This document shows, one piece after another, positions 4,197-43,411 of a DNA stretch of 47,408 nt (position 1 is the stretch's first letter; every line of letters starts with the position of its first letter). The stretch is from assembly GCA_005805305.1 (NCBI GenBank), contig SYMW01000044.1, positions 1 to 47,408 on the forward strand. Direction: 5' to 3'. The stretch is from Verrucomicrobiales bacterium (GTDB lineage Bacteria; Verrucomicrobiota; Verrucomicrobiia; Limisphaerales; F1-80-MAGS106). The notes under the pieces were generated by a model. It was given only the letters and a program-made list of their open reading frames with translations. It was not told the origin of the DNA and did not search any database. Position numbers and translations under genes: made by a program.

Positions 4197-4203
4197 GGGG
4201 ATC

Positions 4204-22289: not shown

Positions 22290-25200
22290 ATGAGTAAACC
22301 CAAACTTCTACTGGGAAGGCTCTGCCTTCTCTCAGCAGCTTTGCTTTCCGCTTTGGCCGCTCAGGCGCAGAGTGATGTGACACAACCTGGCGATCCAATC
22401 ATCGCCTCGTCATCAAACAGCCCTGGTTCTGAGGGCGTCGCGAATGCCATTGATGGCAAACCCACAAAGTATTTGAATTTCGACACGCGAACCGGGGGGA
22501 AACCCTCTGGTTTCGTGGTCTCCCCCTCCATCGGGGTCACCGTCGTCACTGGCATCACTCTCCAATCAGCCAACGACGCAATCGAGCGCGACCCCAAAAT
22601 AGTCACCCTCGAAGGTTCCAATGACGATACGGTCACCGCCTTCAGTGCGGGCAATTGGGAAGCCATCACGACGTTGAGCGACATCCCAGCTTATACGTCT
22701 CGGTTTCAAACCCAGGCGTTCTCTTTCGACAACACGAAGCCCTTCCGGCACTACAGGGTCACCGTGCTCGAGACTCAAACAGTCAACGGGTGCTGCTTCC
22801 AAATCGCCGAAGTGGAACTGTTGGGGACCTTGCTTCCTCAAGACGTGACCCAACCCGGTGATCCGATCGTTGCTTCTTCCACAAACAGCCCTGGATCCGA
22901 AGGCGTGGCAAACGCCATCGACGGCAAACCCACCAAATACCTCAATTTCGACACGCGAACCGGCGGCAAACCTTCAGGATTCCTGGTCACTCCTGGAATC
23001 GGAGTCACACGAGTCACGGGCCTCTCCTTGCAATCCGCGAACGACGCGATCGAGCGTGATCCCAAGATCGTCATGCTTGAAGGCTCCAACGACGCAACTG
23101 CCGCTAACTTCGGCGCGGGCAATTGGGAGATGATTGCGAAACTCGACAACATCCCCGCCTTCACCGCCCGGTTTCAAACGAAATACTTTTCGTTTCCCAA
23201 CACCAAACTCTACAGGCACTACCGGTTCACCGTGCTGGAGACCCAAACCGTCAACGGATGCTGCTTCCAAATCGCCGAAGTCGAGATTCTCGGAAACGCG
23301 TTGCCGGCTGACGTGACCCAACCCGGAGATGCGGTGATCGCCTCCTCGTCCAACAGCCCCGGTTCTGAAGGCGTGGCCAATGTCATTGATAACAAACCCA
23401 CGAAATATCTCAATTTCGACACCCGGACCGGTGGCAAGCCTTCCGGTTTGGTTGTCACTCCTTCTGTAGGCCGCACTCTCGTGACCGCGATCACGATGCA
23501 ATCCGCCAACGACGCCGTCGAGCGTGATCCCAAGATCATCATGCTTGAAGGATCCAACGACAACACCATCTCCGCCTTCGATGCTGGCAATTGGGAGTTG
23601 ATTGTGAAACTCGACAACATCCCGGCTTACACCGCACGCTTCCAGCCCCAATCTTTCGGGTTCGATAACTGCAAAGCCTACAAGCACTACCGCTGGACCG
23701 TTCTGGAGACCCAGACTGTCAACGGTTGTTGTTTCCAACTCGCTGAACTCGAACTGCACGGCACGGGCGCTCAAGACGTGACGCAGCCGGGCGATCCTGT
23801 CATCGCCTCCTCGACGAACAGCCCCGGCTCCGAAGGCGTCGCCAACGCGATCGACGGCAAGCCCACAAAGTATCTTAACTTCGACACTCGGACAAACGGC
23901 AAGCCTTCCGGATTTGTGGTTTCTCCTTCTGTCGGTGCGACCACGATTATTGGCATCACGCTGCAATCCGCCAACGACGCCCCCGAACGAGATCCAAAGA
24001 TCGTCCGCGTCGAAGGATCCAATGACAGCGCCGTCACCGCATTTAACGCTGGGAACTGGACGGAGATTGCGAAACTAGACAACATTCCTGCTTACACGGC
24101 CCGGTTTCAAACGCAGGAGTTCTACTTCTGCAACACCAAACCCTACAGGCATTATCGTGTCACGGTTGTCGAAACCCAAACGGTCAATGGGTGCTGCTTC
24201 CAGATCGCCGAAGTGGAGTTGATTGCGGCGGTCACCAGCGCGCCAGATTTCGCGCGTTTCACTTCGCAGCCGGTGGACACATTGGTTCTGGAAAACCAAG
24301 CGGCCACGTTTTTCGCGGGACTCAACGGACCATGGCCCGTGCAATGGTACAAGAACGGTCAAGTTATCCCTGGCGCGGTGAAAACTTCGTTCACCACCGA
24401 AGCCGTCACTCCGGTCAATGCGACCAATATTTACAACTGCCAGATTGTCGGCCGTGAAACGAGTTCTCCAGCCAAAGCGGTGCTCTTCGCGCCAACAAGC
24501 CAGCCGACCAGCGTGGCTGTGAGCTTCATCGGCAGCGGCGCCAACGGAGCACCGACTTCCGTGAGGCCCGATGACATTATCGGCATCCAACCGCAAGCAT
24601 ACTGGAACAACGCCTCCGGGGGGAGCGCTGCCTTGCCAGATCTCGGCGCCGATCCTCTGGTTCCGTTCGTCGATAGTTTGAACAAGGAAACTGCGGTCAC
24701 CTTCGAATGGATCACTTCGGGCACTTGGGGCGCGGGCACCGGCGATTCCACCGGAACGCAACGCATGTTGAACGGACTCACCCTCGACGGTCTCGGAGGT
24801 GAACCCGCAACCTACACCTTCTCGAATGTGCCGGCGGGGACTCATGCCGTGATTGCCTACGTAGTGAGCCCACCTCTCCAATTCCAGAACGTGGCTTACA
24901 AAATCAGTGGCGCCACCGACCAGACCTACTACATCCGCGCCATGAATTCGGATGAATACAACGCCGCGCCTGGTTTCTACCGCGGGTCCAGCACTGATCC
25001 CGCAAATCCAACCATCGCCAGCTACGTGCGTTTCGACAACGTTCGCCCGAGCGCCGCGGGAACGATTACATTGTTCGTCGATATGACCACGCCTGGATTT
25101 GATCGCGGAACTGGTGTGAACGGCATTCAATTGGTTTTGAACGCCACGGCACCCCCGCCGCTTCCTGTGATCACGGTGCATCCTCAGCCGACAGTCGCAC

Positions 25201-26372
25201 CAGAGGCCGGCACGGCGAGGCTTACGGTCACCGCCACGGGTGACAATCTCACCTATCAATGGCGCAAGGATGGCCGCAGCTTGCCGAACGGCGGCAACGT
25301 CAGCGGGGCCACAACCGCGACTCTCTCCATCACTGGATTCAGCGCGGCCGACCAAGGGATCTACAGCGTTGCCGTGTTTAACGCAGGTGGCAGCACAATC
25401 AGCAAGAACGCCGCCGCGAGACTCTCGAAATTCCAAATTGGGGAGTCGCTCGCGGGTTACTGGAAATTCGACGAGGCTACGGGCAACACTGCCGCTAACG
25501 CGGTTTCCGGAGGCAAAGTCGGCACCGTAAACGGCACCGCGACCAGGGCATCCGGAAGGATCGCCAATGGCTTCACGTTTGATGGAGCCACCTACATCAT
25601 GGTGGATGATTACGCCAAAGCCACTCGGCAGATCGCCGCTTCGGCTTGGGTGAACTTAACACCAGGCTTGGCCGCCGATGTCACCATCATCCGCAACGGG
25701 TTGGGTGAAATCGTGCGTCAGTCCGCCAACGTCGGCCAGTTCGAACTCGGGATTGTGGCGGATGCCAACGACGGCCTCATGAAGCCCATGGCCGCTATCC
25801 GGGCCGGTCCTAACGTGGTCCGGATCACAGGCGCCGCCGCCTTCCCCACCGGTCCTTGGCATCACCTGGCATTCAGCGCCGACGGCGCCCAGTTGCGCCT
25901 TTATGTGGACGGAAAGGAAGTCGCTTCCAGCGACTATCTCGATGTCATCCCGGCGCCCAGCGTTCCGTGGTTGTCGATCGGAGCACGCTTGAATTACACG
26001 GATCCGGCGGATCCAGCCAGTGGTCTGGCTCCGGACTCAACTTCGCCTAACTTCATGGTGGGCGGAGTGGATGATCTCGCCTTGTGGAACCGGGGACTGT
26101 CCGCGACTGAAGTCGGCCTGATCTATTCCGAAGGCCTGAAAGGCACGATGTTGTCCTCCGTGGTGGTGCCGAAAGTGGTCGTCGATGAGCCTTCCACGTT
26201 CACCGGCATTGCCGTGAGCGGCGGAAACATTGTCATCACTTGGAAGGGCAGCGCCGCCGTTCAGTCGGCAACTTCAGTGACCGGACCTTACACGGACGTC
26301 GCGGGCGCCACAGGTGGTACGCTCACTGCGCCCATTACGGCCGAGCCGAAGTTCTATCGTTTCAAACCTTGA
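22290..26372 (+). CDS. Secreted exoprotein with four tandem discoidin-like repeats, Ig and LamG
   Basis: 1360 residues. Signal peptide ends at LAAQAQS (about 28). Four near-identical discoidin (F5/8 C)-like repeats of 155-156 residues begin DVTQPGD at about 29, 185, 341 and 496; each carries GVANAIDGKPTKYLNF (copy 3: NVIDNKPTKYLNF) and ends NGCCFQ(I/L)AE. Then an Ig-like domain (about 651-737), a beta-rich region I do not recognise (about 739-951), another Ig-like domain (about 957-1047), LamG (about 1054-1280) and the C-terminal module (about 1289-1360) shared with two other exoproteins here. Discoidin and LamG folds bind sugars or surfaces, so multivalent glycan or cell-wall binding is inferred; no catalytic domain is seen. 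It is a single-gene unit with its own terminator. Confidence 0.92.
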   Translation: MSKPKLLLGRLCLLSAALLSALAAQAQSDVTQPGDPIIASSSNSPGSEGVANAIDGKPTKYLNFDTRTGGKPSGFVVSPSIGVTVVTGITLQSANDAIERDPKIVTLEGSNDDTVTAFSAGNWEAITTLSDIPAYTSRFQTQAFSFDNTKPFRHYRVTVLETQTVNGCCFQIAEVELLGTLLPQDVTQPGDPIVASSTNSPGSEGVANAIDGKPTKYLNFDTRTGGKPSGFLVTPGIGVTRVTGLSLQSANDAIERDPKIVMLEGSNDATAANFGAGNWEMIAKLDNIPAFTARFQTKYFSFPNTKLYRHYRFTVLETQTVNGCCFQIAEVEILGNALPADVTQPGDAVIASSSNSPGSEGVANVIDNKPTKYLNFDTRTGGKPSGLVVTPSVGRTLVTAITMQSANDAVERDPKIIMLEGSNDNTISAFDAGNWELIVKLDNIPAYTARFQPQSFGFDNCKAYKHYRWTVLETQTVNGCCFQLAELELHGTGAQDVTQPGDPVIASSTNSPGSEGVANAIDGKPTKYLNFDTRTNGKPSGFVVSPSVGATTIIGITLQSANDAPERDPKIVRVEGSNDSAVTAFNAGNWTEIAKLDNIPAYTARFQTQEFYFCNTKPYRHYRVTVVETQTVNGCCFQIAEVELIAAVTSAPDFARFTSQPVDTLVLENQAATFFAGLNGPWPVQWYKNGQVIPGAVKTSFTTEAVTPVNATNIYNCQIVGRETSSPAKAVLFAPTSQPTSVAVSFIGSGANGAPTSVRPDDIIGIQPQAYWNNASGGSAALPDLGADPLVPFVDSLNKETAVTFEWITSGTWGAGTGDSTGTQRMLNGLTLDGLGGEPATYTFSNVPAGTHAVIAYVVSPPLQFQNVAYKISGATDQTYYIRAMNSDEYNAAPGFYRGSSTDPANPTIASYVRFDNVRPSAAGTITLFVDMTTPGFDRGTGVNGIQLVLNATAPPPLPVITVHPQPTVAPEAGTARLTVTATGDNLTYQWRKDGRSLPNGGNVSGATTATLSITGFSAADQGIYSVAVFNAGGSTISKNAAARLSKFQIGESLAGYWKFDEATGNTAANAVSGGKVGTVNGTATRASGRIANGFTFDGATYIMVDDYAKATRQIAASAWVNLTPGLAADVTIIRNGLGEIVRQSANVGQFELGIVADANDGLMKPMAAIRAGPNVVRITGAAAFPTGPWHHLAFSADGAQLRLYVDGKEVASSDYLDVIPAPSVPWLSIGARLNYTDPADPASGLAPDSTSPNFMVGGVDDLALWNRGLSATEVGLIYSEGLKGTMLSSVVVPKVVVDEPSTFTGIAVSGGNIVITWKGSAAVQSATSVTGPYTDVAGATGGTLTAPITAEPKFYRFKP
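22374..24230 (+). repeat. Four in-gene tandem repeats of about 468 bp
   Basis: Units start at 22374, 22842, 23310 and 23775, so spacings are 468, 468 and 465 bases. They encode the discoidin-like domains. Long identical stretches at DNA level suggest recent expansion or gene conversion. Confidence 0.92.
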
Positions 26373-26531: not shown

Positions 26532-29500
26532 ATGCGATCGATTCTAAAAGCTTTATCCAGTTCCGCGCCAGTTCTCCGGCCGCCGGGCCTTTGCAGTTTG
26601 TCAATTCTTTTGGGAACTGCCTTCGTGATCTTGGCTGTTACCGGTCACGGTTTGGATTGGATTCAAACGGAAGGCCACCGTTTGGCTCCTTTAAGCGTCC
26701 GTGCCTCTTCGGGTCCCGGCTTCACACCGGTGCCCGCATCTCGCATCGGCATCCTGTTCACAAACACCCTCACGCAAGCCCGCGCCGCCCAGTTTCAGAA
26801 CCTGATGAACGGGTCGGGGGTGTGCGCGGGGGATGTGAATGGCGACGGCAACACGGATCTGTACCTTTGCAATCGGCAGGGTGCCAACGGACTTTTTCTG
26901 GGTTCCGGGGGAGGTGTCTTTACGAACGCTACGGTGCTGGAAACCACCGCGTGCACCAATCAAACCTCGAGCGGAGCACTCTTCGCGGATGTGGATGGCG
27001 ATCGCGATTTGGACCTGGTGGTCAATTCTTTCGATGGCCCGAACTCGCTTTTCTTAAATGATGGTCTGGGTCGGTTCTCTGGAACCGGAGCGGCGTCGGG
27101 ACTCACCACGCAGCAAGGAGCCACCTCGATGGCCATGGGAGATTTGGATGGGGACGGCGATTTGGATCTCTACATGTGTCATTTTGGAACCCTCTCGCTC
27201 CTAAGGGATGGCGCTGATATATCGATTCGAACCGTTCAAGGAAGACCAACGGTGACCGGGCGTTATGCCAATCGACTCAAAATCGTGGATGGGATGATGG
27301 AGGAGTACGGAGAGCCCGACATCGTTTTTCTCAACGAGGGCGGTGGGCGTTTCAAAAGGGCGGATTGGAGCAATCTCTTCTTTGACGAGGGCGGCAAACC
27401 TTCAGCAGTGCTCCGGGATTTCGGCCTCGCCGTTCAAATTCGTGACATCAATGGAGACGGCCTGCCGGACATCTACGTTTGCAACGATTTCCAAACTCCT
27501 GACCGGATGTGGCTCAACCAAGGGGGTGGAAAGTTTCGGTCCGTTGAGCAGACCGCCATGCGCAACATGAGTTATGCTTCGATGGGAGTCGATTTCGCGG
27601 ATCTCAACCGCGATGGATTGGATGATTTCATCACAGTGGAAATGTTGAGCCGCGATCATTCCCGTCATCTCCGCCAATCCAGCGCCCGCAAGGGTGTCCG
27701 AAGAATTCCGGGGGCTTCGTTGGAGCGCGAGGAATCCATGCGCAATAATCTTTTTATGAATCGAGGGGACGGCTCCTACACCGAGGTGGCACTGATGGCG
27801 GGAGTCGCCGCATCGGGTTGGTCCTGGACTCCTATCTTCCTGGATGTGGATCTGGACGGATATGAGGATCTTCTGATCTCGAACGGGCATTTGCACGATG
27901 TCAATGATCAGGATGTCGCGGAAAATGCCCGGCTTCAATCCGGCTCCGTGCCTTCTGCAACCAAGTCGAAACTCGACCAGTATCCGCCCCTCACTCCTCC
28001 CAAATACGCCTTTAGAAACCGTGGGGACGGCACGTTCGAGGAGGTCGGTTCAGCCTGGAACTTCAATTCTCAACAAATGGGTCACGGCATGGCGCTGGCG
28101 GATCTTGATAACGACGGCGATCTGGACGTCATCCTGAATGTCTTGAACGGGGAGCCCTTGATTTATCGCAATGAAAGCCCCGCTCCACGAATCGCCGTGA
28201 GGCTCAAGGGGCGTGCGCCCAACACCCGGGGTGTGGGCGCCAAGATTATCGTGTCGGGAGGTCTCGTGACACAAACACAGGAAATGCTCAGCGGGGGACG
28301 CTATCTCTCGGGCGATGACCCGATCCGCACTTTCGCGGCTTGGAGCCTGACGAATCGCTTGGCTATTGAGGTGCGATGGCCGGGAGGAGGGATCAGCACT
28401 ATCAGGGACGCGGCGCCGAATTATCTCTATGAAATCGAGCAACCTCCGGCAAACGCCTCGCCGTCTCCACTGGCCGCAAAGTCCATAGCCACTAGAAAAT
28501 CCGGAACAAAGCCTTGGTTTGTCGATGTCAGCGACAGACTCAACCACCGGCACATTGAGGAGGCGTTCGATGATTTCGCGATGCAACCCTTGTTGCCTTA
28601 CAAACAGAGCCAAACTGGACCGGGCCTCGCCTGGGTGGATGTCTCCGGCGATGGACGCGATGATTTGGTGGTTGGCACAGGTCGTCGCGGTGTGCTCGCG
28701 GTGTTCGAAAACCGCCCTGATGGAACGTTCCGGCAATCGTCATCGCAAAGCCTCCCCAACGAGATTGCCGAAGAGGATATCACGGGTCTAGCGGTTTGGT
28801 CTTTTGCCTCCGTCAAGACGCTGCTGTTGGCAGGAATGGCCCGCTACGAAAGCACTTATCCCAAGGGTGATCTAAAGTGGTTTTCTTCGGGAAATGGCGG
28901 CGGGTTGATGCCACGCCCCTTCGACTTGACCGCTCCCGGCACGGGCTCGGGATCGCTGGCCATCGGGGAAATCGATGGGTCCGGGAGTCCGCGGCTGTTT
29001 GTTGCCGGCGGAGTGATGCCGGGACGTTATCCGGAGCACTATCCAAACCGGATCTACAAGCTCGATCCGAGCGGAGTGATCATTGACGAATCCGCGACTC
29101 GCGCCGTGGCCTCCGCAAAGTTGGTTCGAGGGGCACTGTGGACAAACCTGGCCGGGGACAGGTTCCCGGAACTTCTCCTCGCGGAAGAATGGGGCCCGAT
29201 CCGGCTCTTCTTGAATCACGCGGGTCGATTGGTGGAAGCAACAGGGAATTTCGGCCTCGAAGATAAGCACGGCCTCTGGACCGGCCTGGCGGCTGGGGAT
29301 TTCGACGGGGATGGAAGGATGGATTTCGTCGCGGCGAACTGGGGTCTGAACACAATGTACCAGGCCTGGCCGTCGTCGGTCCACGAGTTGCTTTATGGAG
29401 CGCTTGCCGGAAACGAAACGGTTCAAATTATTGAAGGAGTGCGGTTTCAGGAGAACGGGGAGCTGTTTCCGTGGCGGAACTTAGCCACGGTGGCTGGCGG

Positions 29501-30251
29501 TTTTCCAGGGCTCCGCGACGATCCAAAATCGTTGACGCACGCGGCGTACTCGAGGACGAACGTCGCGGATCTCCTCGATCCTTGGAGGAGTCGGTTGGGT
29601 CGCGTGCGGGCGACCTGGTTCGCTTCCACCGTTTTTCTGAATCGGGGTGATCGTTTCGAGGCGCGTCCGCTGCCCGCCGAGGCTCAGCAAGCGCCGGTTT
29701 TCGGTCTCGCGATCGCCGATGCCGATCTGGATGGTATTGAGGATATTTTTTTGGCTCAAAATCTTTTTGCGATTCGTCCGGATGAAGCTCGAATGGACGC
29801 GGGTCGAGGGCTTTGGTTGAAAGGACTGCCCGGCGCGAAGTTTGTGGCGGTTCCAGGCCAGGAGAGCGGGATCAAAATCCAAGGCGAGTCTAGAGGCTGC
29901 GCCCTGAGCGATTTTGACGCCGACGGGCGTGTGGACCTCGTGGTTTCCCAGAACGGGGCTGAGACACGTCTGTTCAAGAATCAGACCCAGAACGCCGGCC
30001 TCCGGGTCAGACTCTCCGGCCCGGAGAACAATAGACTGGGTTACGGCGCGGTGCTCCGGATCGGAAAGAATGCCGCCTGGGGCCCGGCGCGTGAAATCCA
30101 TTCGGGCTCGGGCTGGCTTTCCCAAAACAGCGCTACGCAAATCTTCAAACAACCTCCACCTGGATCGAGAATCCAAGTTCATTGGCCAGGAGGCAGAGTG
30201 GTCGAAGCGCCAATCCCAGAAGACAAAACCGAGATTATCGTCTCCTGGTAG
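26532..30251 (+). CDS. Giant secreted FG-GAP/VCBS protein with two ASPIC/UnbV domains, second paralog
   Basis: 1239 residues with an N-terminal signal (hydrophobic about 22-38). The double-half layout matches 5770-9669: FG-GAP repeats (DVNGDGNTDL, DVDGDRDLDL, DLDGDGDLDL), UnbV at about 551-638, then a link DVSDRLNHRHIEEAFDDFAM, a second propeller and a C-terminal UnbV at about 1155-1235 (GYGAVLRIGK, HSGSGWLSQ). Shared markers with the other two giants include EYGEPD or LGEPD, YVCNDFQTPDR and a DWSW- or GWSW-type motif. It is an exported protein whose ligand is unknown; proteins of this kind also occur in Bacteroidetes. The next start is one base after its stop, so it is coupled to the cytochrome c/FG-GAP fusion. 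Confidence 0.93.
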   Translation: MRSILKALSSSAPVLRPPGLCSLSILLGTAFVILAVTGHGLDWIQTEGHRLAPLSVRASSGPGFTPVPASRIGILFTNTLTQARAAQFQNLMNGSGVCAGDVNGDGNTDLYLCNRQGANGLFLGSGGGVFTNATVLETTACTNQTSSGALFADVDGDRDLDLVVNSFDGPNSLFLNDGLGRFSGTGAASGLTTQQGATSMAMGDLDGDGDLDLYMCHFGTLSLLRDGADISIRTVQGRPTVTGRYANRLKIVDGMMEEYGEPDIVFLNEGGGRFKRADWSNLFFDEGGKPSAVLRDFGLAVQIRDINGDGLPDIYVCNDFQTPDRMWLNQGGGKFRSVEQTAMRNMSYASMGVDFADLNRDGLDDFITVEMLSRDHSRHLRQSSARKGVRRIPGASLEREESMRNNLFMNRGDGSYTEVALMAGVAASGWSWTPIFLDVDLDGYEDLLISNGHLHDVNDQDVAENARLQSGSVPSATKSKLDQYPPLTPPKYAFRNRGDGTFEEVGSAWNFNSQQMGHGMALADLDNDGDLDVILNVLNGEPLIYRNESPAPRIAVRLKGRAPNTRGVGAKIIVSGGLVTQTQEMLSGGRYLSGDDPIRTFAAWSLTNRLAIEVRWPGGGISTIRDAAPNYLYEIEQPPANASPSPLAAKSIATRKSGTKPWFVDVSDRLNHRHIEEAFDDFAMQPLLPYKQSQTGPGLAWVDVSGDGRDDLVVGTGRRGVLAVFENRPDGTFRQSSSQSLPNEIAEEDITGLAVWSFASVKTLLLAGMARYESTYPKGDLKWFSSGNGGGLMPRPFDLTAPGTGSGSLAIGEIDGSGSPRLFVAGGVMPGRYPEHYPNRIYKLDPSGVIIDESATRAVASAKLVRGALWTNLAGDRFPELLLAEEWGPIRLFLNHAGRLVEATGNFGLEDKHGLWTGLAAGDFDGDGRMDFVAANWGLNTMYQAWPSSVHELLYGALAGNETVQIIEGVRFQENGELFPWRNLATVAGGFPGLRDDPKSLTHAAYSRTNVADLLDPWRSRLGRVRATWFASTVFLNRGDRFEARPLPAEAQQAPVFGLAIADADLDGIEDIFLAQNLFAIRPDEARMDAGRGLWLKGLPGAKFVAVPGQESGIKIQGESRGCALSDFDADGRVDLVVSQNGAETRLFKNQTQNAGLRVRLSGPENNRLGYGAVLRIGKNAAWGPAREIHSGSGWLSQNSATQIFKQPPPGSRIQVHWPGGRVVEAPIPEDKTEIIVSW

Positions 30252-30252
30252 G

Positions 30253-31977
30253 ATGGGAGGTCAGTTGTTTTTTCTCTTGTCCCGCATACGGTTCAAGGTC
30301 ATACGAAAGTCACCCATGTTTCGAAGTTTTCAGGCGGTCCACGAAGCGCTGTTAGCCTCATTCCGGAGAACTGGGGCAGTTGTGGAGGTTGATATCGTCC
30401 GCCTGGATCACAGATTTGCTAGGAAGTCGGGGATCCTCGTCCTTTTGATGGGGATCATCTGGTTCCGGAATGTCCCGGCCTATGCCGCGGATCAGCCTTC
30501 CTCATCGCCCACGACCTCCGCGGCAATCGTGCGGGGGCGGCAATTGGCCAAGACATTCTGCATTCGATGCCATCTTTTTCCGGAGCCCTCAGCCATCGTC
30601 CGCTCGACTTGGCATGACGAGATCCTGCCCCGCATGAAGTACCGCCTGGGCTTTTCCACGCCTCAACTGGAGCAGAGTGCCAATATTAAACTCCTACGAG
30701 CCAACAATCGACTCCCCACTTCGCCGGTCATCACTGAGGAACAATGGGTCGATCTTGTGACCTATTTCCTCAGCGAAGCGCCCACGGAACCACCACCACA
30801 GGATGTTTCCGTCCCAATTGATGTCGGAGTTCCAGATTTTCGCCTTTCTCCAGCGCAGTATCGATCCGAATCGCCTTCGGTCACTTCGATCAAAATCCAC
30901 TCTAAAGGAGGGGCCTTGGTGGCGGAAGACGACACTAAATCCATCGCCTGGCTTGGAACCCGAGGCCAATTGATCGGACGCCTCGTCACCAGCAATTCGA
31001 TCAGCGCCTTTCGCCCCACCCAAGATGGGTTGCTGGTTGCCATGTTGGGCAGTTTTTTGCCTTCCGATGATGCGCGAGGCGGTGTCGTTCAATTGAGGAA
31101 TCCGTCTTCTTGGGAGTTTGGTCCTCCCATCCTGTCGGGTCTGCCCCGGACCACCGACATCAACGCCGCTGATCTGAACGGAGATGGCAGGACTGACTGG
31201 GTGGTGAGCTGCTTCGGAAATAATCTGGGCCGCTTGTTCTGGTTGGAGAATCGAGCGGACGGCGCCCGCGTGGAGCACGAGTTGTTCGGGCTGCCTGGGG
31301 TGTTGCGCACAGAGATCGCCGATTTCAACGGTGATGGATATTTGGATATTGTGGCTTTGGTGGCGCAGGAGACGGAGTCGATGTTCCTTTTCGTGGGCAA
31401 CGGCAAAGGAACCTTCACGCGAAAGACCTTGTTTCAGCGCCCGCCTTACTGGGGGCACAGTTATTTTGAGTTGATCGATCTTAATCGCGATGGGCGCCCG
31501 GATTTCTTGGTGACCAACGGAGACAACGGTGAGTTTTCATCCCACTCAAAGCGGTTCCACGGGGTGCGAATCTACGTTTCCCAGCCTGGTGGCGATTGGA
31601 TTGAGAAGGTTTTCATTCCCATGTATGGCGCGTTTAAAGCGGTCGGGCGTGACTTCGATCGGGACGGAGATCTGGATATCGCGGCGGTTTCCTATTTCCC
31701 CGACTATCAACGCGCGCCCCGCGGCTCTTTTTTGTTCCTGCGAAACGATGGACCAGGGTTCAAAGCCTTCACTTTTGCCGAGAGCGCGCTCGGCCGATGG
31801 CTGACGTTGGATGCCGGCGATGTGGATGGGGACGGCGATGACGATATCTTGTTGGGCTCCTACATCAAAGGCCCAACCGCGGTCCCCGAAGTTCTGATGA
31901 AAGCGTGGCTCCAAGCGAGGCAGCCGCTGGCGTGGCTTGAGAATCGTGCCACGCTGGCCGGCCCGCCTGGCAAATGA
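30253..31977 (+). CDS. Exported monohaem cytochrome c-FG-GAP fusion
   Basis: 574 residues from ATG 30253, one base after the previous stop; a later ATG at 30316 is possible, and the frame further upstream lies over the previous gene. A hydrophobic export segment (about 58-71, SGILVLLMGIIWF) ends near AYAAD. Then C103-I-R-C-H107 in a cytochrome c-like segment (about 92-180), with Met in LPRMKYRLGFS as a possible axial ligand. FG-GAP repeats follow (DLNGDGRTDW, DFNGDGYLDI, DLNRDGRPDF, DFDRDGDLDI, DVDGDGDDDI). No UnbV domain is present. The fusion suggests a redox site held on a propeller platform. Coupling to the giant paralog suggests that they work together. Confidence 0.88.
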   Translation: MGGQLFFLLSRIRFKVIRKSPMFRSFQAVHEALLASFRRTGAVVEVDIVRLDHRFARKSGILVLLMGIIWFRNVPAYAADQPSSSPTTSAAIVRGRQLAKTFCIRCHLFPEPSAIVRSTWHDEILPRMKYRLGFSTPQLEQSANIKLLRANNRLPTSPVITEEQWVDLVTYFLSEAPTEPPPQDVSVPIDVGVPDFRLSPAQYRSESPSVTSIKIHSKGGALVAEDDTKSIAWLGTRGQLIGRLVTSNSISAFRPTQDGLLVAMLGSFLPSDDARGGVVQLRNPSSWEFGPPILSGLPRTTDINAADLNGDGRTDWVVSCFGNNLGRLFWLENRADGARVEHELFGLPGVLRTEIADFNGDGYLDIVALVAQETESMFLFVGNGKGTFTRKTLFQRPPYWGHSYFELIDLNRDGRPDFLVTNGDNGEFSSHSKRFHGVRIYVSQPGGDWIEKVFIPMYGAFKAVGRDFDRDGDLDIAAVSYFPDYQRAPRGSFLFLRNDGPGFKAFTFAESALGRWLTLDAGDVDGDGDDDILLGSYIKGPTAVPEVLMKAWLQARQPLAWLENRATLAGPPGK

Positions 31978-32165: not shown

Positions 32166-34514
32166 TCACCGGTTCTCCTCTTTCTCCAAATAGGTCCGCA
32201 CCTGTTGCAGATAGGACCTTGCCAACGCATTCGTCGGCTGCAGCTTCAATGCCTCTTCGAACTCGGCCATGGCTTCGCGCAATCGCGACTGTTTGGTCAA
32301 GGCGACTCCCCAATCCGTTCGGACCACCGCGGAGTTCGGCACCTGCTGGATCACGCGGTGAAACTCGGCTTCCGATTCATTTGTCCGACCGGCGCGGCTT
32401 AGCTCGATTGCCAGGCGATGGCGGAGAGCCGCGTTGTTGGTGTCACGACGCGACGCTTCAGCGTAGGCCGTGGAGGATTCGTTGTAGGATTTCTGGTCGG
32501 ACAGAAATTCACCCAAACGCATCAGTGGCGTGGTGGCCATGGGATGTTCCTCGGCCGCTTGCTTGAAGTCAGCGATCGCTTCTGCAAAACGTCCCATCCC
32601 GATGAGCGCAACTCCGCGATTGACCCTGGCTTGAAGATTGCGCGGGGAGAGATTTAGCGCGCGCTCGAGGGCCAGCACCGCCGCGGAAAAGTTTTTCAAT
32701 TCTCCCAGCACATATCCGAGTCCGATGCTCGCTTCAACAAAGTCGGGCCGGATCCTTAGCGCTTGCTCGTAGGCTCGTTGAGCGCCCAATCTGTCGCCCG
32801 CACCCGCCAAAGATTCGCCGAGCTGATACCACCCGACCACATGCCCGGGCGCTTTTTCCACCACCTGCCGCCATTCCACGCTCGCTTCCGGCAAACGGCG
32901 TGCCGTTTGGAGCAATCGGGCAAGTTGCTCGCGCAAATTCCAGTCGGCTGGGTGTCGATCGACCAAGGATCGAACCTTGGCGGCGTAACCATTAAGATTT
33001 TCGTGCCGCGCCGTGCGATTCGCTTCGGCAATGCGATCGTCGAGGAAACGGCTGCGCAACTCGGCGTTGCTCTGGTGTGAAAATGGAGGGCGCTCACAAA
33101 GCATTCGGGTTTGCGTCCACAAGCGCGACTCGGCGAATGGAGTCCAACCGAGTCTTGCCAAGCAGGCTTGCTCACCGAGCAAGTTGGTCGAACCGCTTTC
33201 GCCAAGCCACGAGACGATTTGTTCCGCAAAAAGCCGTGCCAGGCGGTAGTTTCCCTGTGGCCGTAGATGGACATGCTCCAGGAACAAATCCATCCCTGGA
33301 GGACGCTTGGGATCCAATCCCTTCAGTTCTCGATCCGCATCCACCAGGCGGACTGAGTCTGGGCGGTTCGATTGCGCCACAGATCGCGTGATCTGGTTAA
33401 TGCCAGAATCGGCTCGAAAGCGGAGTGTGTCCAGGTCGCGGGCTGTTTCTAGGTCGGCTCGACCCGCAGTGATTTGATCCGCATTCAGTCGCGCCAAGCC
33501 GAGGCGAAAGGCGGTTTCGGCGTCCTTGGGCCAAATCGAAAAAGCGTTCGTCCATGCCCCTATCGCCTCGGCCCAGGCACCCCGTTCATCCGCCTCGCGC
33601 GCGATGGTGGCCGCCGACAGCCACCTGGAATGGAGAGGCGTGTTTGTGCTCAGGGCGCTCTCGGAACTGAACGGAGCGCAGTCGACCAAGTTCACCGCCA
33701 TGGTGCCGAGGAGCACTTTTGCCCCCGAACCGACTCCGAAATTGACCGTATCGTGGAGATTCGCGCGGAAATTTTCCCGCATCACGTTTAGCCGAGGATC
33801 TTCCGCTTTCACTTGCCGGTTCAGAAAATGCTCCAATCCGATCCATCGTTGAGTCATGGCGAAGCCTTCCGAACTTTCCGATTTCCTCTTCGCAATCCAT
33901 TGTCCTATCGCTGTGGTGCGCACCCAAAGTCCCATTCGGATAGCACTCAAACCAGGGGGAGAGCCGGACACGACGGAGCTGGGTCCAAAAGGGCCGACAA
34001 CTTCATTGTTGCCGGCGTAGATGACCCAGAAGTCAGAGTTCAAACGGCGCGAACCCTTGGCGGCTTCGCGTATCGCGTAGGAATTCAGCGCCGTGATGGC
34101 GGTGTTGATGATTTCGATCGATCTCCCGGGAAACCGATGCTCCAAAATAGCCTCCAAACACCGGCTCATTCCAAAAGCTGGTTCGGGGTCGCCCAAGGCG
34201 GCGGATTCTCCGAAAACGACTACCCGCAACGTCTCTCGGGAGGGGCGCTCTGTGATCCGAATCGACCGCGGCATCCGGGCCAAGGTTTCACCGACAAATC
34301 GATCCGCGAAGCGTGTGTTCGGCGTTAATTCGCCTGTGTGGGTCGTGGGAACCCAAAATTCTGTGGATGTATGCACCCCATTGATCCGCAACATCCATTC
34401 GATCGCTCCGACCAGGCACAGAGGCATCGAAAAGGCGATGGCACGAAACCAGAAGCGCCGTCGCGCGCTTTGAATCTTGGGGACGGAGTGGGGCGTTCTA
34501 GGTTGCCGAGACAC
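32166..34514 (-). CDS. Membrane-anchored SGNH-hydrolase-like/TPR protein
   Basis: 782 residues. One N-terminal hydrophobic segment (about 23-42) acts as anchor or signal. An SGNH-like domain follows with block I as F-G-E-S104, block II near NTAITALNSY (137-146), block III Y-A-G-N169-N170-E and block V E413-H-V-H416-L. A helical insertion (about 300-365) interrupts the domain. At least seven TPR units fill about 510-778 (PDFVEASIGLGYVLGEL and similar). In SGNH enzymes Ser and the block V His are catalytic; the usual block V Asp is Glu here, and the usual GDS is GES, so activity is likely but not proven. The substrate could be an ester or O-acetyl group on an envelope polymer (inference). It is convergent with the cytochrome/FG-GAP gene. 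Confidence 0.87.
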   Translation of the reverse strand: MSRQPRTPHSVPKIQSARRRFWFRAIAFSMPLCLVGAIEWMLRINGVHTSTEFWVPTTHTGELTPNTRFADRFVGETLARMPRSIRITERPSRETLRVVVFGESAALGDPEPAFGMSRCLEAILEHRFPGRSIEIINTAITALNSYAIREAAKGSRRLNSDFWVIYAGNNEVVGPFGPSSVVSGSPPGLSAIRMGLWVRTTAIGQWIAKRKSESSEGFAMTQRWIGLEHFLNRQVKAEDPRLNVMRENFRANLHDTVNFGVGSGAKVLLGTMAVNLVDCAPFSSESALSTNTPLHSRWLSAATIAREADERGAWAEAIGAWTNAFSIWPKDAETAFRLGLARLNADQITAGRADLETARDLDTLRFRADSGINQITRSVAQSNRPDSVRLVDADRELKGLDPKRPPGMDLFLEHVHLRPQGNYRLARLFAEQIVSWLGESGSTNLLGEQACLARLGWTPFAESRLWTQTRMLCERPPFSHQSNAELRSRFLDDRIAEANRTARHENLNGYAAKVRSLVDRHPADWNLREQLARLLQTARRLPEASVEWRQVVEKAPGHVVGWYQLGESLAGAGDRLGAQRAYEQALRIRPDFVEASIGLGYVLGELKNFSAAVLALERALNLSPRNLQARVNRGVALIGMGRFAEAIADFKQAAEEHPMATTPLMRLGEFLSDQKSYNESSTAYAEASRRDTNNAALRHRLAIELSRAGRTNESEAEFHRVIQQVPNSAVVRTDWGVALTKQSRLREAMAEFEEALKLQPTNALARSYLQQVRTYLEKEENR

Positions 34515-34733
34515 CGGGCAGTTTTATCGTGATGCAAACTTGGCCGCAAGTTCCCACTAAGGGGCACTCGCCGATCCTCGGAACCGGATTACGGCGCCAC
34601 CAGCACTATTGCCCCCATTTTTCTTGCATAACATCGGCTGAGTCTTTAAAAAAACCCGCTAACCCCGTTGCGACGCCTGTTATATTATCTTGCCTGAATG
34701 TCGAGGCAGGCAGCGCGTCTCAACAAAAAAAAT

Positions 34734-37700
34734 ATGAAACAACCAGTAAATCAGCAACAGCAGGGCTTAATGCCCTCGCCACGGCTTATTGGAGCAGCCG
34801 TGTCACTCGTTGCGCTCCTCGGATCGCTGCAAATTCAGGGTGGATCTTTCACCTATAATTTCAGCACTGATCCGTCGCAGGGCGCAAATCCAGTAACAAT
34901 TGGTGGAAATAACCCCGATTATTATGTTGACGCGGGCGGTAATCCTGGAGGGTTCCTCGCTATTACCTACCCGATCGGAAGCCAAAAGACCACTGTAGTG
35001 TTTCCGAACACGGACCCCGGAAAAATTGTCACAGGCTTTGAGTTGTCTTGCGATCTCCGCGTCGGCAATCCCACCGGGGCTCGAGCGGCGGATGGATTCA
35101 GCATCAGTTTTGCCCGCGACGGCGATCCAATCCTTGACGATGCCAACTCCGACGCGTTCGGCGGCAATTGCTGCGCTGAAACCGGAACGAAGACCGGCAT
35201 TGCCATTTCGTTTGACACTTGGTCTGGCAACACGTTCCCGAACGATCCTAATGATAAGACCGACATTGAAGGTTTTATCATTCGCGTCGATGACGTCACG
35301 GTCCGGAAAGTTTCCTTGCCGACTCGGAATGGCTTGGCGGACGACAACACCAGCTTGCAAACCGGCCCACGTGCCGCGGATTACTGGACCGCTGGTGGTG
35401 ATCCGAAGGACCCCGGTTCATGGGCGGGTCTCGCGTGGAAGCCATTCAGCGTGAAACTCACTCCGGATGGCAAATTGACCGTTAAATGGAAAGATCGAAC
35501 CATTTTGGATAATTTTCAGACGAGCTACTTTCCGTCGTCTGGGCGTTTGGTGCTCTCGGGTCGAACGGGTGGCGCGAATGAACACACACATGTGGATAAC
35601 CTCGTCCTCACCACCACGGCGGCTGATGTCACAGGTATCCCCGGACCCGTCAGCAACCTGGCGGCGCCTGAAAAGGGCTCCCGCCGTATCAAACTGACGT
35701 GGACCGCCGCAACCGTTCCTGGTGATCCTGTCGCCCGGATTGCCTATGAAGTCGAACGAAACGGTGTCGTGATCGCGCCTTTGGTCACCGGGACTTCCTA
35801 CGAAGATCGCGGTGCTGCTCCAGGCACGTCTTATACATACAAAGTTCGCGGCAAAAACATCGCGGGCAAGGCGGGTCCGGATGCAACCGTGACCGCCGCA
35901 ACGGTGCAGGATGTTGCCGGCACTGGCTTCCTCAAGGCCGAACAATGGACAGGAATTGGGGGTACGGGGATCGACGGGGGCATCAGCGATGCTCATTTCT
36001 CGGATCCGCCGGATCGCGTGCGCTTTGTGAACGGTCTCAGCTTCGGGGAAACCTCGGGCTTCGGCGATACTTGGGGAGATAACCACATCGTCAAGATCTC
36101 TGGTGTGTTCAAAGCTCCTGAGTCTGGTAATTTCCGTTTCTTCATTCGTTCGGATGACGGCGGGAACTTCTATTTCAACACGGCGGGAGAGGCTGTTCCT
36201 GATGTGACGTCGGCTACTCCGGTTGCCATCGAAACTGGCTGTTGCACTGGGTTCCTGGAACCTCCCGACGAGCAGGTCTCTGAGCCGATCGCGCTTGTGG
36301 AGGGTCGTTCCTACGGCTTCGCGCTCCTCGTCAAAGAAGGCGGCGGCGGCGATTGGGGCCAAGTGGCCATCCGCAAAGAGGGTGATCCCACCCCTGCTTC
36401 GGCTCTGACTCCGCTCCGTGGCGGTGTGTTGACCGGGCAGGTCGATGGTGTCGGGGCGACCGTCACCATAACGACACCTCCCGCGGCACAAACTGTAGTG
36501 GCGAATTCGCCAGTGACATTTACCGCTGTCGCAACCGGTAGTTCGCCTTACGGCGGGGATTACGGCAACGCCGTCGTCTACCAATGGTACATCGGTGGGA
36601 AAGCCATTCTGGGCGCGACGGGTGCTTCTTACACTCGAACGGTCACTCCCATCGAGTGGAATGGATTGGACGTCACCGTGGGCGCTGGCGTGGCCGGTGC
36701 TTGGGCAACCAGTGCCCCAGCCAAGCTGACTGTTAACGTTGACACCGTCCCTCCGACCGTAAAGCGAGTGAACGGCTCAGATACATTTAATTCCGTGACG
36801 GTGATATTCAGCGAACCAGTGACTGATTCAGCATTGACGGTCGCCAACTACACCATCACAGGGTTGACTCTCAGTGCTCCTGCCAGGGTCAATGAACGCA
36901 CTGTTCGCTTTACCACAAGCGCGCAGGCGATTAACACGGTCTATCCGGTCCGGATCACGGGTGTGCGTGACAACGCCAACCTGGCGGTCGACTTCACGGG
37001 AACCTTCACGAGTTTCCAACTCGTGTCGGGCGCTGTGTTCTTCGGTATGTGGACTGGCGAAACCGGCGGATTCAACACCTGGGTGGATGTCCCGGTATCG
37101 GCGAAACCGCCGTCGTCGGTTGCGACCAAGACCAGTTTCTGGAGCCAAATCGGAAACACGGCGACGGAAAACTACTTCGGACAGCTCAAGGCTATCTTCA
37201 CGCCCGCTACTTCGGGCAACTATGTGTTCTTCATGTCCGCGGATGACCACTCCGAGCTCTACCTGAGCACGGACGAGAATCCCGCCAACAAGAAGCGGAT
37301 CGCGGAGGAACCGGCATGGGGTGGTGAACGCGGCTGGCAAGGGGGCGCCGATGGAACGGCCAGCAACGGTGGTACGCGTGGCGCGCTTGGTGAAAAGTCG
37401 AATCGTTCCGATGAATACGCAAATACGGAATGGTCCACTGGCGCTGGTGGAAATATCAGCTTGGTCGCCGGCAAGAAATACTACTTGGAACTGCTCTACA
37501 AAGAGGGCGGCGGCGGCGATCATGGTGCTGCGACATTCCTTATCAAGACAGGTGCGACCGCGCCAGCGACTCCCGCGGACGGGACAGCCAGCGCGCTCAC
37601 CGGCAATCTCGTGGCTTGGTACATTGACCCAGGCCTCCAACCTCCGACGGTCGCGACGGCCCCCACGGGCGTGTCGTATGCGTCTGGAGAAACAATCAGC

Positions 37701-38753
37701 TTCAGCGTGGTGGCTAATTCCGCTCTCCCAGCGACCTACCAATGGTATCAGAACAAGAAAGCCATTGCGGGCGCCACCAGCGCAACTCTGACGATACCGA
37801 ATGCGGGAGCGGCGAACGTGGGCGATTATTACGTCCGTGTGACCAACGAAAATGGCTCGTTTGAAACGTCTGATAATGACGCGCGAGCCACCATGACGGG
37901 CGCGTTCGTGATCGAAGCTGAGGACTACAACTTCGGGAGCGGCCAGACTGTGGCCGCCGCGAGTGTGTCGCCTTTGGTCTCCGATCTGTATAAAGGTAAA
38001 GATGGCGTGTATGACGTCGATTTCCATGGAATCGAATCAACCGCTGATTCTGGCGCGAACGGCAACAGTTATCGGAACGGTTGGGTTGATGCGGGCAGTG
38101 TGCAAGCGGCCGCTCCCAACGGGAACATCGACGTCATCATCGATAATGGCGGCGGCGGGCCCGGCGAGCAGAATCGCAAACGCCCAGACTTCGTGTTGAC
38201 CAACAACTACAAGATCGGTTGGGGCAATCAAGGCGACTGGTATAACTATACCCGCGACTTCCCGCCCGGCAATTACAGCGCGGTGATTGGGTACTCCCGC
38301 GATGGACGCACCGCGGACGCTTATGGCGTCGCGCTGGAACTTGTTACCGGGGACCGAACGAAACCAGGTCAGGTTGCAACTTTGGTTGGCGAGGCAACCT
38401 TAAGTGGCACTGGCGGTTGGAGTTCTGATGACCGCGTGCCGCTGCTCGCTCCAGGTTCCCAGAATGTGGCTTCGTTTGCGCTCGGCGCCAACACCACTGT
38501 TCGTTTGCGCATCGCCAAGGGTGATCCCGACCTGGACTACTTGTTGTTCTACAGGGCGGGCGCGGGTGCTCCGCAGTTTAGCTCAATCGTGCTCAACGCG
38601 AATGGGAGCATCACACTCACTTGGACAGGTGGCGGTCGATTGCAATCGACCGGCGCCCTCGGCACCACCTGGACTGATGTGCCAGGCGCCGCGAGTCCGT
38701 TCACGTTCACACCAACTGCAAGGCAGTTGTTCGGACGTCTAGTCGCGCCATAA
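34734..38753 (+). CDS. Secreted lectin/FN3/PA14/CBM exoprotein
   Basis: 1339 residues from ATG 34734 (the earlier frame start at 34698 adds 12 residues). Signal peptide about 17-40. Domains in order: L-type-lectin-like beta sandwich (about 40-298), FN3 (about 303-391), PA14 (about 398-566), Ig-like (about 573-668), SbsA-type Ig (about 670-758), second PA14 (about 765-963), Ig-like (about 968-1054), CBM6-like region beginning VIEAEDYNFG (about 1056-1276) and the C-terminal module (about 1280-1339). PA14 markers are RSDDGG and SADDHS. Paired cysteines are C146-C147 and C503-C504; one further Cys is near position 104. Several glycan-binding folds and no catalytic domain suggest an adhesin or polysaccharide-binding surface protein. 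A terminator follows. Confidence 0.9.
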   Translation: MKQPVNQQQQGLMPSPRLIGAAVSLVALLGSLQIQGGSFTYNFSTDPSQGANPVTIGGNNPDYYVDAGGNPGGFLAITYPIGSQKTTVVFPNTDPGKIVTGFELSCDLRVGNPTGARAADGFSISFARDGDPILDDANSDAFGGNCCAETGTKTGIAISFDTWSGNTFPNDPNDKTDIEGFIIRVDDVTVRKVSLPTRNGLADDNTSLQTGPRAADYWTAGGDPKDPGSWAGLAWKPFSVKLTPDGKLTVKWKDRTILDNFQTSYFPSSGRLVLSGRTGGANEHTHVDNLVLTTTAADVTGIPGPVSNLAAPEKGSRRIKLTWTAATVPGDPVARIAYEVERNGVVIAPLVTGTSYEDRGAAPGTSYTYKVRGKNIAGKAGPDATVTAATVQDVAGTGFLKAEQWTGIGGTGIDGGISDAHFSDPPDRVRFVNGLSFGETSGFGDTWGDNHIVKISGVFKAPESGNFRFFIRSDDGGNFYFNTAGEAVPDVTSATPVAIETGCCTGFLEPPDEQVSEPIALVEGRSYGFALLVKEGGGGDWGQVAIRKEGDPTPASALTPLRGGVLTGQVDGVGATVTITTPPAAQTVVANSPVTFTAVATGSSPYGGDYGNAVVYQWYIGGKAILGATGASYTRTVTPIEWNGLDVTVGAGVAGAWATSAPAKLTVNVDTVPPTVKRVNGSDTFNSVTVIFSEPVTDSALTVANYTITGLTLSAPARVNERTVRFTTSAQAINTVYPVRITGVRDNANLAVDFTGTFTSFQLVSGAVFFGMWTGETGGFNTWVDVPVSAKPPSSVATKTSFWSQIGNTATENYFGQLKAIFTPATSGNYVFFMSADDHSELYLSTDENPANKKRIAEEPAWGGERGWQGGADGTASNGGTRGALGEKSNRSDEYANTEWSTGAGGNISLVAGKKYYLELLYKEGGGGDHGAATFLIKTGATAPATPADGTASALTGNLVAWYIDPGLQPPTVATAPTGVSYASGETISFSVVANSALPATYQWYQNKKAIAGATSATLTIPNAGAANVGDYYVRVTNENGSFETSDNDARATMTGAFVIEAEDYNFGSGQTVAAASVSPLVSDLYKGKDGVYDVDFHGIESTADSGANGNSYRNGWVDAGSVQAAAPNGNIDVIIDNGGGGPGEQNRKRPDFVLTNNYKIGWGNQGDWYNYTRDFPPGNYSAVIGYSRDGRTADAYGVALELVTGDRTKPGQVATLVGEATLSGTGGWSSDDRVPLLAPGSQNVASFALGANTTVRLRIAKGDPDLDYLLFYRAGAGAPQFSSIVLNANGSITLTWTGGGRLQSTGALGTTWTDVPGAASPFTFTPTARQLFGRLVAP

Positions 38754-38853: not shown

Positions 38854-41800
38854 GTGAAACCGCTCTGCCCACGGAGATCGTCCCAATCCACAATCCCGTT
38901 CCAACGGCCCATCTGGACTATTTTCATGTTCCTAGTGGCGTGGTCAGGCGCTGGCTTGGTTGCGGCATCAAAGATTGAAGCCCTCCAAACCTCCGCGTCG
39001 ATGACTGCGCGTAGCGGATTCGCAAGAGTTTCCAGCGAAGTTTCAGGAGTTACTTTTTCCCACGTCATTCCCGACGCCCGTTCTCTCACCAACCAAATGC
39101 TGTTGGACGGCGCCGGCGTGGCCCTGGCCGACGTAGATGCCGATGGTTTGGTGGATATCTTTTTCGGAGGCAGCAACGGGCAAAGCCAGCTCTGGAAGAA
39201 CCTAGGTAATTGGAAATTCCGAGACGTGACTGCAGCGGCCTTTCCCACGCGGACGACAGCTCTCTCAGGTGACATCACCGGTGTGGCTTTTGCCGATTTC
39301 AACGGGGATGGAAAGCCGGACTTGGTCATCAATTCGCATGCCCATGGAATCCGCGTCCTCCTCAATGAAGGTCCCGGCGTTTTCCACCGGCTTGAGTTCC
39401 CACAGTCACGCGCGAGGGGCGGGCACTCGCTGGCCATCGCGGATGTAGATGGAGATGGGTGGTTGGATATCTACGTTTGCAACTACAGGGAACGCGCGCT
39501 CATGGACATGCCGAGCGCCCGGGCCACGTTTAAATCGATCAATGGAGTTCAAATGGTCGCGACCTTGGATGGACGACCCACGAGCGATCTCGATCTCACG
39601 AACCGTTTCGTCGTCGCACCCGGAGGGAGATTGGACGAATTGGGGGAGCCTGACGTGCTTTACCAGAATCTGCGCGGCACGAACTTCACCGTAGTCGGCT
39701 GGATTCAAGGTGGATTTCTCGATGAGGATGGAAAATCTCTCGCTGAACCACCCAGGGATTGGGGCCTGGCGGCCCAGTTCTGCGATGTCAACGAGGATGG
39801 TCGTCCGGACCTGTATGTCTGCAACGATTTTCAAACTCCCGACCGGTTTTGGTTGAACGAAAGCACGCCCGGCGCGATTCGTTTTCGACTTGTCCCTCGC
39901 GCGGCTTTGCGTCACACGAGCCTGTTCTCCATGGGCGTGGACTTTGGGGACATCAATCGAGATTCAATATGGGACTTTGTAGTGCTCGACATGTTGAGCC
40001 CGGACCATGTTCGCCGACTGACGACTATGGAGGGGGCCTCCACGGCCGACAACGAACCGGAGGCTGCACACTCTCGGCCTCAATCCGATGCAAACACGTT
40101 GTTTATCGGCCGTGTTGATGGATCCTTCGCGGAGGTCGCCAACATCGCCGGCGTCATGGCGACGGATTGGTCCTGGACGCCGGCCTTTATGGATGTGGAT
40201 CTAGATGGGTGGCCAGATCTCCTGGTGACTGCCGGGCAGCATCGAGGTTCGCGAGACCTTGATCAGGCTGAATCGTTGAAGGCTTTTCGCCGCGCTGGAC
40301 TGAGGACGGACGCCCAGATTCTTCGCGAGCGACAGAAGTTCCCTCCCCACCATTCCTCTTTGAAAGCGTTTCGAAATCGGCCCTCAGCGTATTCCGGCGG
40401 CATCCCAAGGTTTGAGGATGTCAGTGCCGCATGGGGCTTCGATTATCTGGGAGTCAGTCATGGGATGGCATTCGGCGATCTGGACGGCGATGGCGATCTG
40501 GATGTCGTGATCAATCATCTTCAAACTCCTGCGGGTCTTTATCGGAACGAGTCATCGGCGCCAAGGGTTGCCGTGAGATTGAAAGCACGAGGTTCCAGTG
40601 CCAGCGCCGCTGGAGCCCGGATGAGGTTCTATTGGATGGGGGACTCGTCGGCGGATCCCCTGCCACAGACAGCGCAAGTCATCATCGGCGGCAGGTATCT
40701 TTCCTCGGATGATTCAAGCAAGACCTTCGCGTGCCCTGGATTGGGTCGAGGAACCCTCGAAATTCGATGGCCGCACGGGCAGATTTCAATAGAAACTAAT
40801 CTTTTGGCGAACCATCGCTACGAGATTGAAGAGCCTGCCGGGTCGTCCAGTACTTCCAACGCATCAATCTTTCCCAGGGCGTCGAGGAGGAGGTTGCACT
40901 TCGAATCGAAGGCAATGAGTCTTCCTGTTGATCGATCTCCGAATGCCGGCTTTGAGATCCAGCCATCGTTGCCCAGAAGGTTGACGACTCACTCGCCGAG
41001 CTTCGCCGCCCGCGTGACTGAAGCTGAAAATTCGCGGCTTTGGATTGGAGCCTCGGATCAACCCATTCGCCAGGTCCAGATCGCATCCGACAGTGTCGGA
41101 AAGCCAAGAACTTTGGGAGCCGCCCGTTCGACGCTGGGCCTCGTGAAATGGGGCGGCTCTTTAATTGCCGCATCGAGAAGCGGCACGAACTCGACGCTTA
41201 GTTGGATCGACGAAGAAAATGGTTCGGAACGGTTGCTCTCCACGTTCGCCGGTTCGGTGACTTGCTTGGCGGTCAGCAGTTCGGCGCCAGCCATTGGAGC
41301 TTATCTTTTCGTCGGCGCGGGGGCGACGCCTGGGGACTATCCACGGAGTCGGAATAGTCAGCTTTTGGAGTGGGACGGCACTGGATTGCGTTTGGCTTTG
41401 ACCACCAATTTGGGACTGGTCACCGGGGCCGTGTTTGCCGGTCTTGATTCCACGCCTGGAGTCGAACTCGTGACGGTCAGCGAGTGGGGAACGCCTCGAA
41501 TTTTGCGCTGCGGTGGTCAGGGGATCCAGGAGTGGGATCCTTCGGTTGTGTTTGGGAAATCAGCGGCTGTGCCTTTGAGCTCCCTGACTGGATGGTGGCG
41601 AAGCATCGCGGCAGCGGACTTGGACCGCGATGAGCGCACGGATCTTGTGCTCGGCAACTGGGGATTCAATTCAAGCTATGCGCTGTACACGGGCTTTCCT
41701 TCCGGTGGGGACGGTTCGGTGAGACCTTTGCGCTTGTACCACGCAATTTTCGTTGCTGGAGCTCGAACTTGCTTTGAAGCCTATACGTCGGATGATCAGC

Positions 41801-43368: not shown

Positions 43369-43411
43369 GCAAAGCTCCGGAGATTGGGTCTGGGTCGCCT
43401 CCTCGACCTGG

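Follow-up and report, generated by a model that had tools for sequence, protein, structure and literature searches.

A widespread family of cytochrome c–FG-GAP propeller fusions represented in a verrucomicrobial contig

The haem-propeller gene and its surroundings

The window analysed here is a stretch of 47,408 nucleotides of contig SYMW01000044.1 from a Verrucomicrobiales bacterium. It contains an open reading frame of 574 codons whose product, hereafter the haem-propeller, combines a CIRCH haem-attachment motif (residues 103–107, numbered from the ATG at 30253) with five DxDxDG motifs (Table 1). A single chain with an export signal, one CxxCH and FG-GAP repeats is what a preliminary description of this DNA had proposed, and this was borne out, the repeats including five FG-GAP calcium loops. 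The gene is preceded on the same strand by a gene for a large FG-GAP/ASPIC protein (the giant) and is followed on the opposite strand by a gene for a TPR protein, which matches a homologue at positions 3441–6086 of locus L113 (E 3.5e-124).

Several other genes of the window are worth recording in their own right. The frames at 22290–26372 and 34698–38753 (plus strand), which flank the region, encode large proteins of the secreted type, in which LamG/F5-8/Ig and PA14/fn3/Ig domains were identified, and similar PA14/Ig proteins are encoded upstream of the homologues L004, L062, L041 and L114. Four more FG-GAP + UnbV_ASPIC proteins are encoded on the plus strand (5770–9669, 18409–20277, 20112–21998 and 38854–42333, the last with weak matches); the pair at 18409–21998 has overlapping frames and is immediately preceded by a TPR gene (16932–18407). 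The minus strand carries a gene for a likely octahaem cytochrome (10913–12895), a 660-residue protein in which CxxCH occurs eight times and which has cytochrome c554/c3/c552-type matches, as well as an ordinary metabolic cluster in which an HpcH/HpaI aldolase lies between two D-2-hydroxyacid dehydrogenases (42403–45204). No match pointing to a phage or plasmid origin was found.

The start codon of the haem-propeller gene deserves attention, because the preliminary description had the gene begin one base after the stop of the giant. This holds for ATG 30253, which is separated from that stop by a single base (30252). In all five nearest homologues examined, an in-frame stop lies 46–70 codons ahead of CxxCH, so that an N-terminus of 102 residues is impossible in these proteins. 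By comparison with relatives, the best-fitting start is GTG 30382, located 59 residues ahead of CxxCH, which yields a standard-looking signal peptide of ~37 residues (with the cleavage site placed by eye) and a gap of 130 bases after the giant. Judging from these upstream stops, the ATG start is probably wrong and GTG 30382 suits the relatives better. Since the start codon is doubtful, so is translational coupling to the giant across one base.

Table 1. Coordinates of the haem-propeller gene, its predicted features and its two neighbours in the window.
Feature	Position	Strand	Basis or remark
Giant neighbour, FG-GAP_3 + UnbV_ASPIC	26532..30251	+	1239 aa; Pfam
ORF of the preliminary description	30253..31977	+	574 aa from ATG; stop-free translation
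More likely coding sequence	30382..31977	+	531 aa, GTG start
Predicted signal peptide, residues 44–80, ending ...HRFARKSGILVLLMGIIWFRNVPAYA and followed by AD	30382..30492	+	Sequence; signal peptide or lipobox in the corresponding position of homologues
Predicted haem (cytochrome c) domain, residues 81–183, five helices	30493..30801	+	AF2, profile matches, Foldseek
CIRCH haem-attachment motif (C103, C106, H107)	30559..30573	+	Conserved in 61/61
W120, invariant haem-domain Trp	30610..30612	+	61/61
M128, sole conserved sixth-ligand candidate, within helix 2	30634..30636	+	58/61; model helix 37–51
Seven-bladed FG-GAP/VCBS propeller, residues 189–564	30817..31944	+	Pfam PF13517 1e-27; 29 model strands; Foldseek
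R299 (DA loop), putative site residue	31147..31149	+	61/61 with haem domain, 13/13 without
Calcium loop 1, DLNGDGRTD (AB loop, blade 3)	31171..31197	+	Model and alignment
Calcium loop 2, DFNGDGYLD (AB loop, blade 4)	31321..31347	+	Model and alignment
Q372...E375 (BC loop, blade 4), putative site	31366..31377	+	58/61 and 60/61; haem-less 13/13
Calcium loop 3, DLNRDGRPD (AB loop, blade 5)	31477..31503	+	Model and alignment
D424...K433...H436 (BC loop, blade 5), putative site	31522..31560	+	H436 61/61 and 13/13; K433 58/61, R in 12/13 haem-less
Calcium loop 4, DFDRDGDLD (AB loop, blade 6)	31651..31677	+	Model and alignment
W516, conserved only in haem-bearing members	31798..31800	+	58/61; haem-less L 11/13, Q 2/13
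Calcium loop 5, DVDGDGDDD (AB loop, blade 7)	31819..31845	+	Model and alignment
TPR protein next to the haem-propeller gene	32166..34514	-	Homologue beside haem-propeller, near giant in G054

The haem domain and the propeller

A lone CxxCH is weak evidence for a cytochrome, as chance alone should give ~2.5 coding-degenerate matches in the window, and none of the Pfam cytochrome families scored above its cut-off on the haem-propeller protein; both points would favour an ordinary FG-GAP protein in which the motif is fortuitous and no haem is bound. Conservation across the family argues otherwise. A scan of GTDB genomes yielded 80 loci, 40 of which were aligned with the query, and C103, C106, H107 and W120 proved invariant, with M128 present in 40 of the 41 sequences. 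In a set of 61 sequences, comprising these 40 loci, the query and 20 loci from the same order, CxxCH and W120 were retained throughout and M128 in all but three. AlphaFold (AF2) modelled the mature full chain as one defined domain arrangement (pLDDT 92.2, pTM 0.92) and the haem domain alone with a pLDDT of 91.2. The preliminary description had asked whether the CxxCH is close to a folded cytochrome domain, and the motif lies inside this confident cytochrome-like helical model. Because of the complete conservation of C103, C106 and H107, the near-complete conservation of M128 and the confidently predicted helical domain, CIRCH is more than a chance occurrence. The genome also contains PF01578 twice, with one copy beside a ResB match, a maturation system indicating that c-type cytochromes can be made. 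A fortuitous CxxCH is consequently exceedingly improbable.

In the modelled haem domain, a long helix runs up to CxxCH and is followed by one carrying W120 and M128, by two short helices and by a final helix with aromatics. The class I-like N-terminal helix running into CxxCH (model residues 7–23) and the aromatic-bearing C-terminal helix (82–95; W165 and Y/F171) are both present, and these elements are shared with Rhodothermus marinus cytochrome c (3cp5/6cuk) and the diheme cytochrome DHC (3u99), which were matched in profile comparisons (E 2e-4 to 8e-4; 2e-4 for the R. marinus protein and 4e-4 for DHC), as was cytochrome c6. The best Foldseek match of the haem domain was 3cp5, with a probability of 0.97 but a weak E of 0.07.

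The sixth haem ligand of class I cytochromes is usually a Met located in a loop ahead of the C-terminal helix. The haem-propeller differs in this respect, as neither Met nor His is conserved in the corresponding loop of the 61 sequences. The axial Met that the preliminary description had sought in a predicted structure is thus missing from its usual place, but a conserved candidate exists in helix 2, namely M128, 21 residues after H107. In some class I relatives, the sixth ligand is inside a helix, and that of the first haem of DHC is H51, 17 residues ahead of the C-terminal helix signature (PMC2909971). In the profile alignment, the DHC helix W...HFG falls on W120...M128...G133, with M128 five residues before the conserved Gly, and we infer that the His of this DHC helix is H51.

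The empty loop could alternatively signify an effectively five-coordinate haem that functions as a gas or peroxide sensor or scavenger, not as an electron carrier. This reading is in line with the remote relationship between the domain and DHC, given that SHP, the partner of DHC, gives up its sixth ligand upon reduction and binds O2 (PMC2909971). Such a function appears decidedly improbable, considering how widely M128 is retained at its fixed distance from the conserved Gly and that its helix matches a DHC helix with a His near the corresponding Gly, which fits a six-coordinate haem. On the six-coordinate reading, which we favour, haem would be attached at C103 and C106, with H107 as the fifth ligand and M128 probably as the sixth.

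Downstream of the haem domain, the protein matches FG-GAP_3 (PF13517) with 96.9 bits against a curated cut-off of 26.9 and FG-GAP with an E of 5e-16, and the strands of the model make up about seven four-stranded blades. Whole-chain Foldseek comparison matched CRTAC1 (9etn), aldos-2-ulose dehydratase (4a7k; second, E 2e-10) and integrin alpha. The CRTAC1 propeller likewise has seven blades and DxDxDG loops (fold E 2e-12, profile E 2e-10), but it is not joined to a haem domain and is 15% identical to the haem-propeller; furthermore, the UnbV_ASPIC domain (PF07593) of the CRTAC1/ASPIC family is absent from the haem-propeller, whereas it is present in the giant. Aldos-2-ulose dehydratase, a catalytic propeller placed in the same VCBS family (PMC8023676), has 879 residues with additional domains and no haem, in contrast to the 494 mature residues of the haem-propeller, which comprise the haem domain and one propeller. 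We regard it as well supported that the protein is exported and joins a monohaem c-type cytochrome to a seven-bladed FG-GAP propeller of the integrin/CRTAC1 type.

Cytochrome c–propeller fusions are a known kind of protein, of which the family described here is a variant. Cytochrome cd1 nitrite reductase and the quinohaemoprotein (PQQ) dehydrogenases also combine a cytochrome c domain with a β-propeller, and their c domains were among the weak fold matches of the haem domain (1nir, 6tsi, 6rtd and 1yiq). Their propellers, however, belong to other families and carry haem d1 or PQQ, and the haem-propeller gave no match to a haem d1 or PQQ propeller in Pfam, NCBIfam, the profile search or the 50 best fold matches. 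The propeller could not be assigned to a known enzyme family, and neither a known cofactor nor a metal site was recognised in it.

The loops of the propeller are unequally conserved. With the calcium motifs excluded, mean conservation is 0.51 for BC and 0.54 for DA loops versus 0.28 for AB and 0.31 for CD loops, and all 16 loop positions with conservation above 0.85, including R299, Q372, E375, D424, K433 and H436, are on the BC/DA face. Propeller topology and the secondary structure of the model, from which the faces were assigned, place these six residues on the face opposite to the predicted calcium loops. The view of the protein as a redox centre held on a calcium-binding scaffold accordingly captures the fusion of a cytochrome domain to a calcium-loop propeller but is incomplete, because the best-conserved non-calcium residues sit on the other face.

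Family distribution, haem-less relatives and neighbouring giants

Members of the family were found in Verrucomicrobiota, Bacteroidota (including Maribacter, Zobellia, Dyadobacter, Cyclobacterium and Neolewinella), Gemmatimonadota, Planctomycetota and Gammaproteobacteria. Within the order to which the window belongs, 20 of 58 genomes encode haem-propellers, in one to five copies each, and the protein from the window pairs in the tree with L003, and next with L004 and L062, within a verrucomicrobial clade. This is a real and widespread family of cytochrome c–FG-GAP propellers, apparently undescribed as far as searched: NCBIfam holds no model for it, and no paper describing a cytochrome c–FG-GAP/VCBS fusion was found in the openly accessible journal literature searched.

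An apparent Rosetta-stone fusion in L047 (a 1279-aa frame) was discarded: the upstream part of the frame seems to be a GC-rich artefact, which leaves an ordinary haem-propeller as the real protein. No conserved operon partner emerged in Bacteroidota, the commonest family accounting for 4 of 112 sampled neighbours. In one same-order genome, a planctomycete-type PSCyt1/PSCyt2/PSD1 cytochrome directly adjoins the haem-propeller (L117:1039–3978, minus strand). The sampled genomes also contain a 6548-aa single open frame with at least nine UnbV_ASPIC domains (G047:C179:1590–19046) and, in a planctomycete, a 1816-aa frame combining FG-GAP propellers with a PPDK_N (ATP-grasp) domain (L055:5512–10959).

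Relatives of the same propeller without a haem domain (L134–L145) occur in other orders of the phylum, most of them with a lipobox-like N-terminus. R299, Q372, E375, D424 and H436 are each conserved in all 13 haem-less propellers, so the conserved site is a property of the propeller, and a role of H436 as a haem ligand is unlikely, since the haem-less forms keep it. K433 and W516, by contrast, appear from the alignment to go with the haem domain; this difference could reflect ancestry, not function, if the haem-bearing and haem-less forms are separate clades. A TPR gene is found near downstream of the haem-less propellers in 8 of 9 loci tested, and about half of the 13 loci have ASPIC/FG-GAP giants within the region retrieved. 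We also considered a split form, with a separate cytochrome beside a haem-less propeller; no adjacent gene encodes a CxxCH, and one such gene lies two genes off in L139.

That haem-less versions exist is one reason to consider a ligand- or glycan-binding, adhesin-like propeller that performs no chemistry and holds a monohaem cytochrome in place at the outer membrane or cell surface, where the haem would only relay electrons among other cytochromes or deliver them to an external acceptor. VCBS/FG-GAP propellers mostly bind, integrins and lectins being examples, in keeping with the fold matches; a lipobox-like Cys precedes the haem domain in many of the Bacteroidota proteins, and large PA14/Ig/LamG secreted proteins recur nearby. 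The invariant R, Q, E, D and H on one face nevertheless seem stricter than would be expected of most binding faces, and we consider such a scaffold possible, if somewhat unlikely.

The preliminary description also coupled the haem-propeller to the giant, and a recurrent association with FG-GAP/ASPIC giants was confirmed. Using P0002 as the probe, we found giants adjoining the haem-propeller on the same strand at 9 of 22 same-order loci (L114, L118, L120, L123, L124, L128, L130, L005 (= G001) and G005:C155), compared with ~1.4% expected by chance from 20–40 ASPIC genes per genome (rough binomial 7e-12, a value that ignores kinship and the clustering of giants). At these loci the haem-propeller always comes first and is followed by one to three giants. 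The order is reversed in the window, where the giant comes first, and an orthologue of this giant in a same-genus genome (74% identity over 753 aa) is located two genes downstream of a haem-propeller, which indicates a genuine association that has undergone rearrangement. The giant is upstream of the haem-propeller gene in Maribacter and Zobellia (L017, L021 and L025), and most Bacteroidota loci have no giant neighbour. None of L003, L004 and L062, which are the closest homologues, has a giant beside it, and genome G052 encodes three haem-propellers and no PF07593 (ASPIC) gene. Giant-adjacent members do not form a single clade either, as the adjacency label has to change some 12 times across the tree. 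The giant often accompanies the haem-propeller but is optional, not an obligate partner, and a necessary partnership is not supported.

Direct electron exchange between the haem and the neighbouring giant had also been suggested. In its favour are the recurrent adjacency in the same order and in Maribacter/Zobellia and the CRTAC1-type genes found beside haem proteins in hydrazine-synthase-like clusters of other bacteria (PMC12758564), although those haem proteins differ from the one described here. A link to hydrazine synthase itself was rejected, with no HZS_alpha domain in the genome of the window. Because the giants contain neither CxxCH nor another recognisable redox cofactor motif, their sequences lend no support to electron transfer in either direction, and the doubtful start codon, the giant-free loci of the nearest homologues, the composition of G052 and the repeated changes on the tree further weigh against it. 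Electron exchange with the giant is therefore improbable.

Proposed function

The best explanation of the locus as a whole, to which we assign a rough probability of 0.45, is a cytochrome-propeller in which the face opposite to the calcium loops handles a substrate, the haem relays electrons and the giant is accessory. Calcium bound in the AB loops would stiffen one face of the propeller, and the opposite face, with R299, Q372, E375, D424, K433 and H436, would bind or transform a small extracytoplasmic substrate. With this site the haem domain would exchange electrons, or it would carry electrons for the site, and it would pass them on to other periplasmic or surface carriers. W516, which is almost restricted to haem-bearing forms, may lie at the contact between the haem domain and the propeller. 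The ASPIC giant would be an accessory or alternative module of the same surface assembly. Because the haem-less relatives keep the putative site, it need not be redox-active. In oxidoreductases with an acquired cytochrome domain, the latter generally links the active site to a partner by electron transfer (PMC6472588), and a cytochrome serving as an add-on relay in the haem-propeller fits this general role.

A more specific version, which we consider unlikely, is a new cytochrome-linked oxidoreductase, in which the invariant R/Q/E/D/H face, with a metal or an unknown cofactor, would be the active site, and electrons would travel via W516 to a class I haem with its Met in a helix. If true, it would make an integrin-like calcium propeller an extracytoplasmic substrate-oxidising or -reducing enzyme.

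Verrucomicrobiota, Bacteroidota and Planctomycetota encode many FG-GAP/VCBS proteins, most of which are annotated with no function. With the family described here, integrin-like propellers join the folds known to be coupled to cytochrome c, and a branch in which both the haem motif and a polar face are invariant provides a testable handle on the function of FG-GAP/VCBS propellers.
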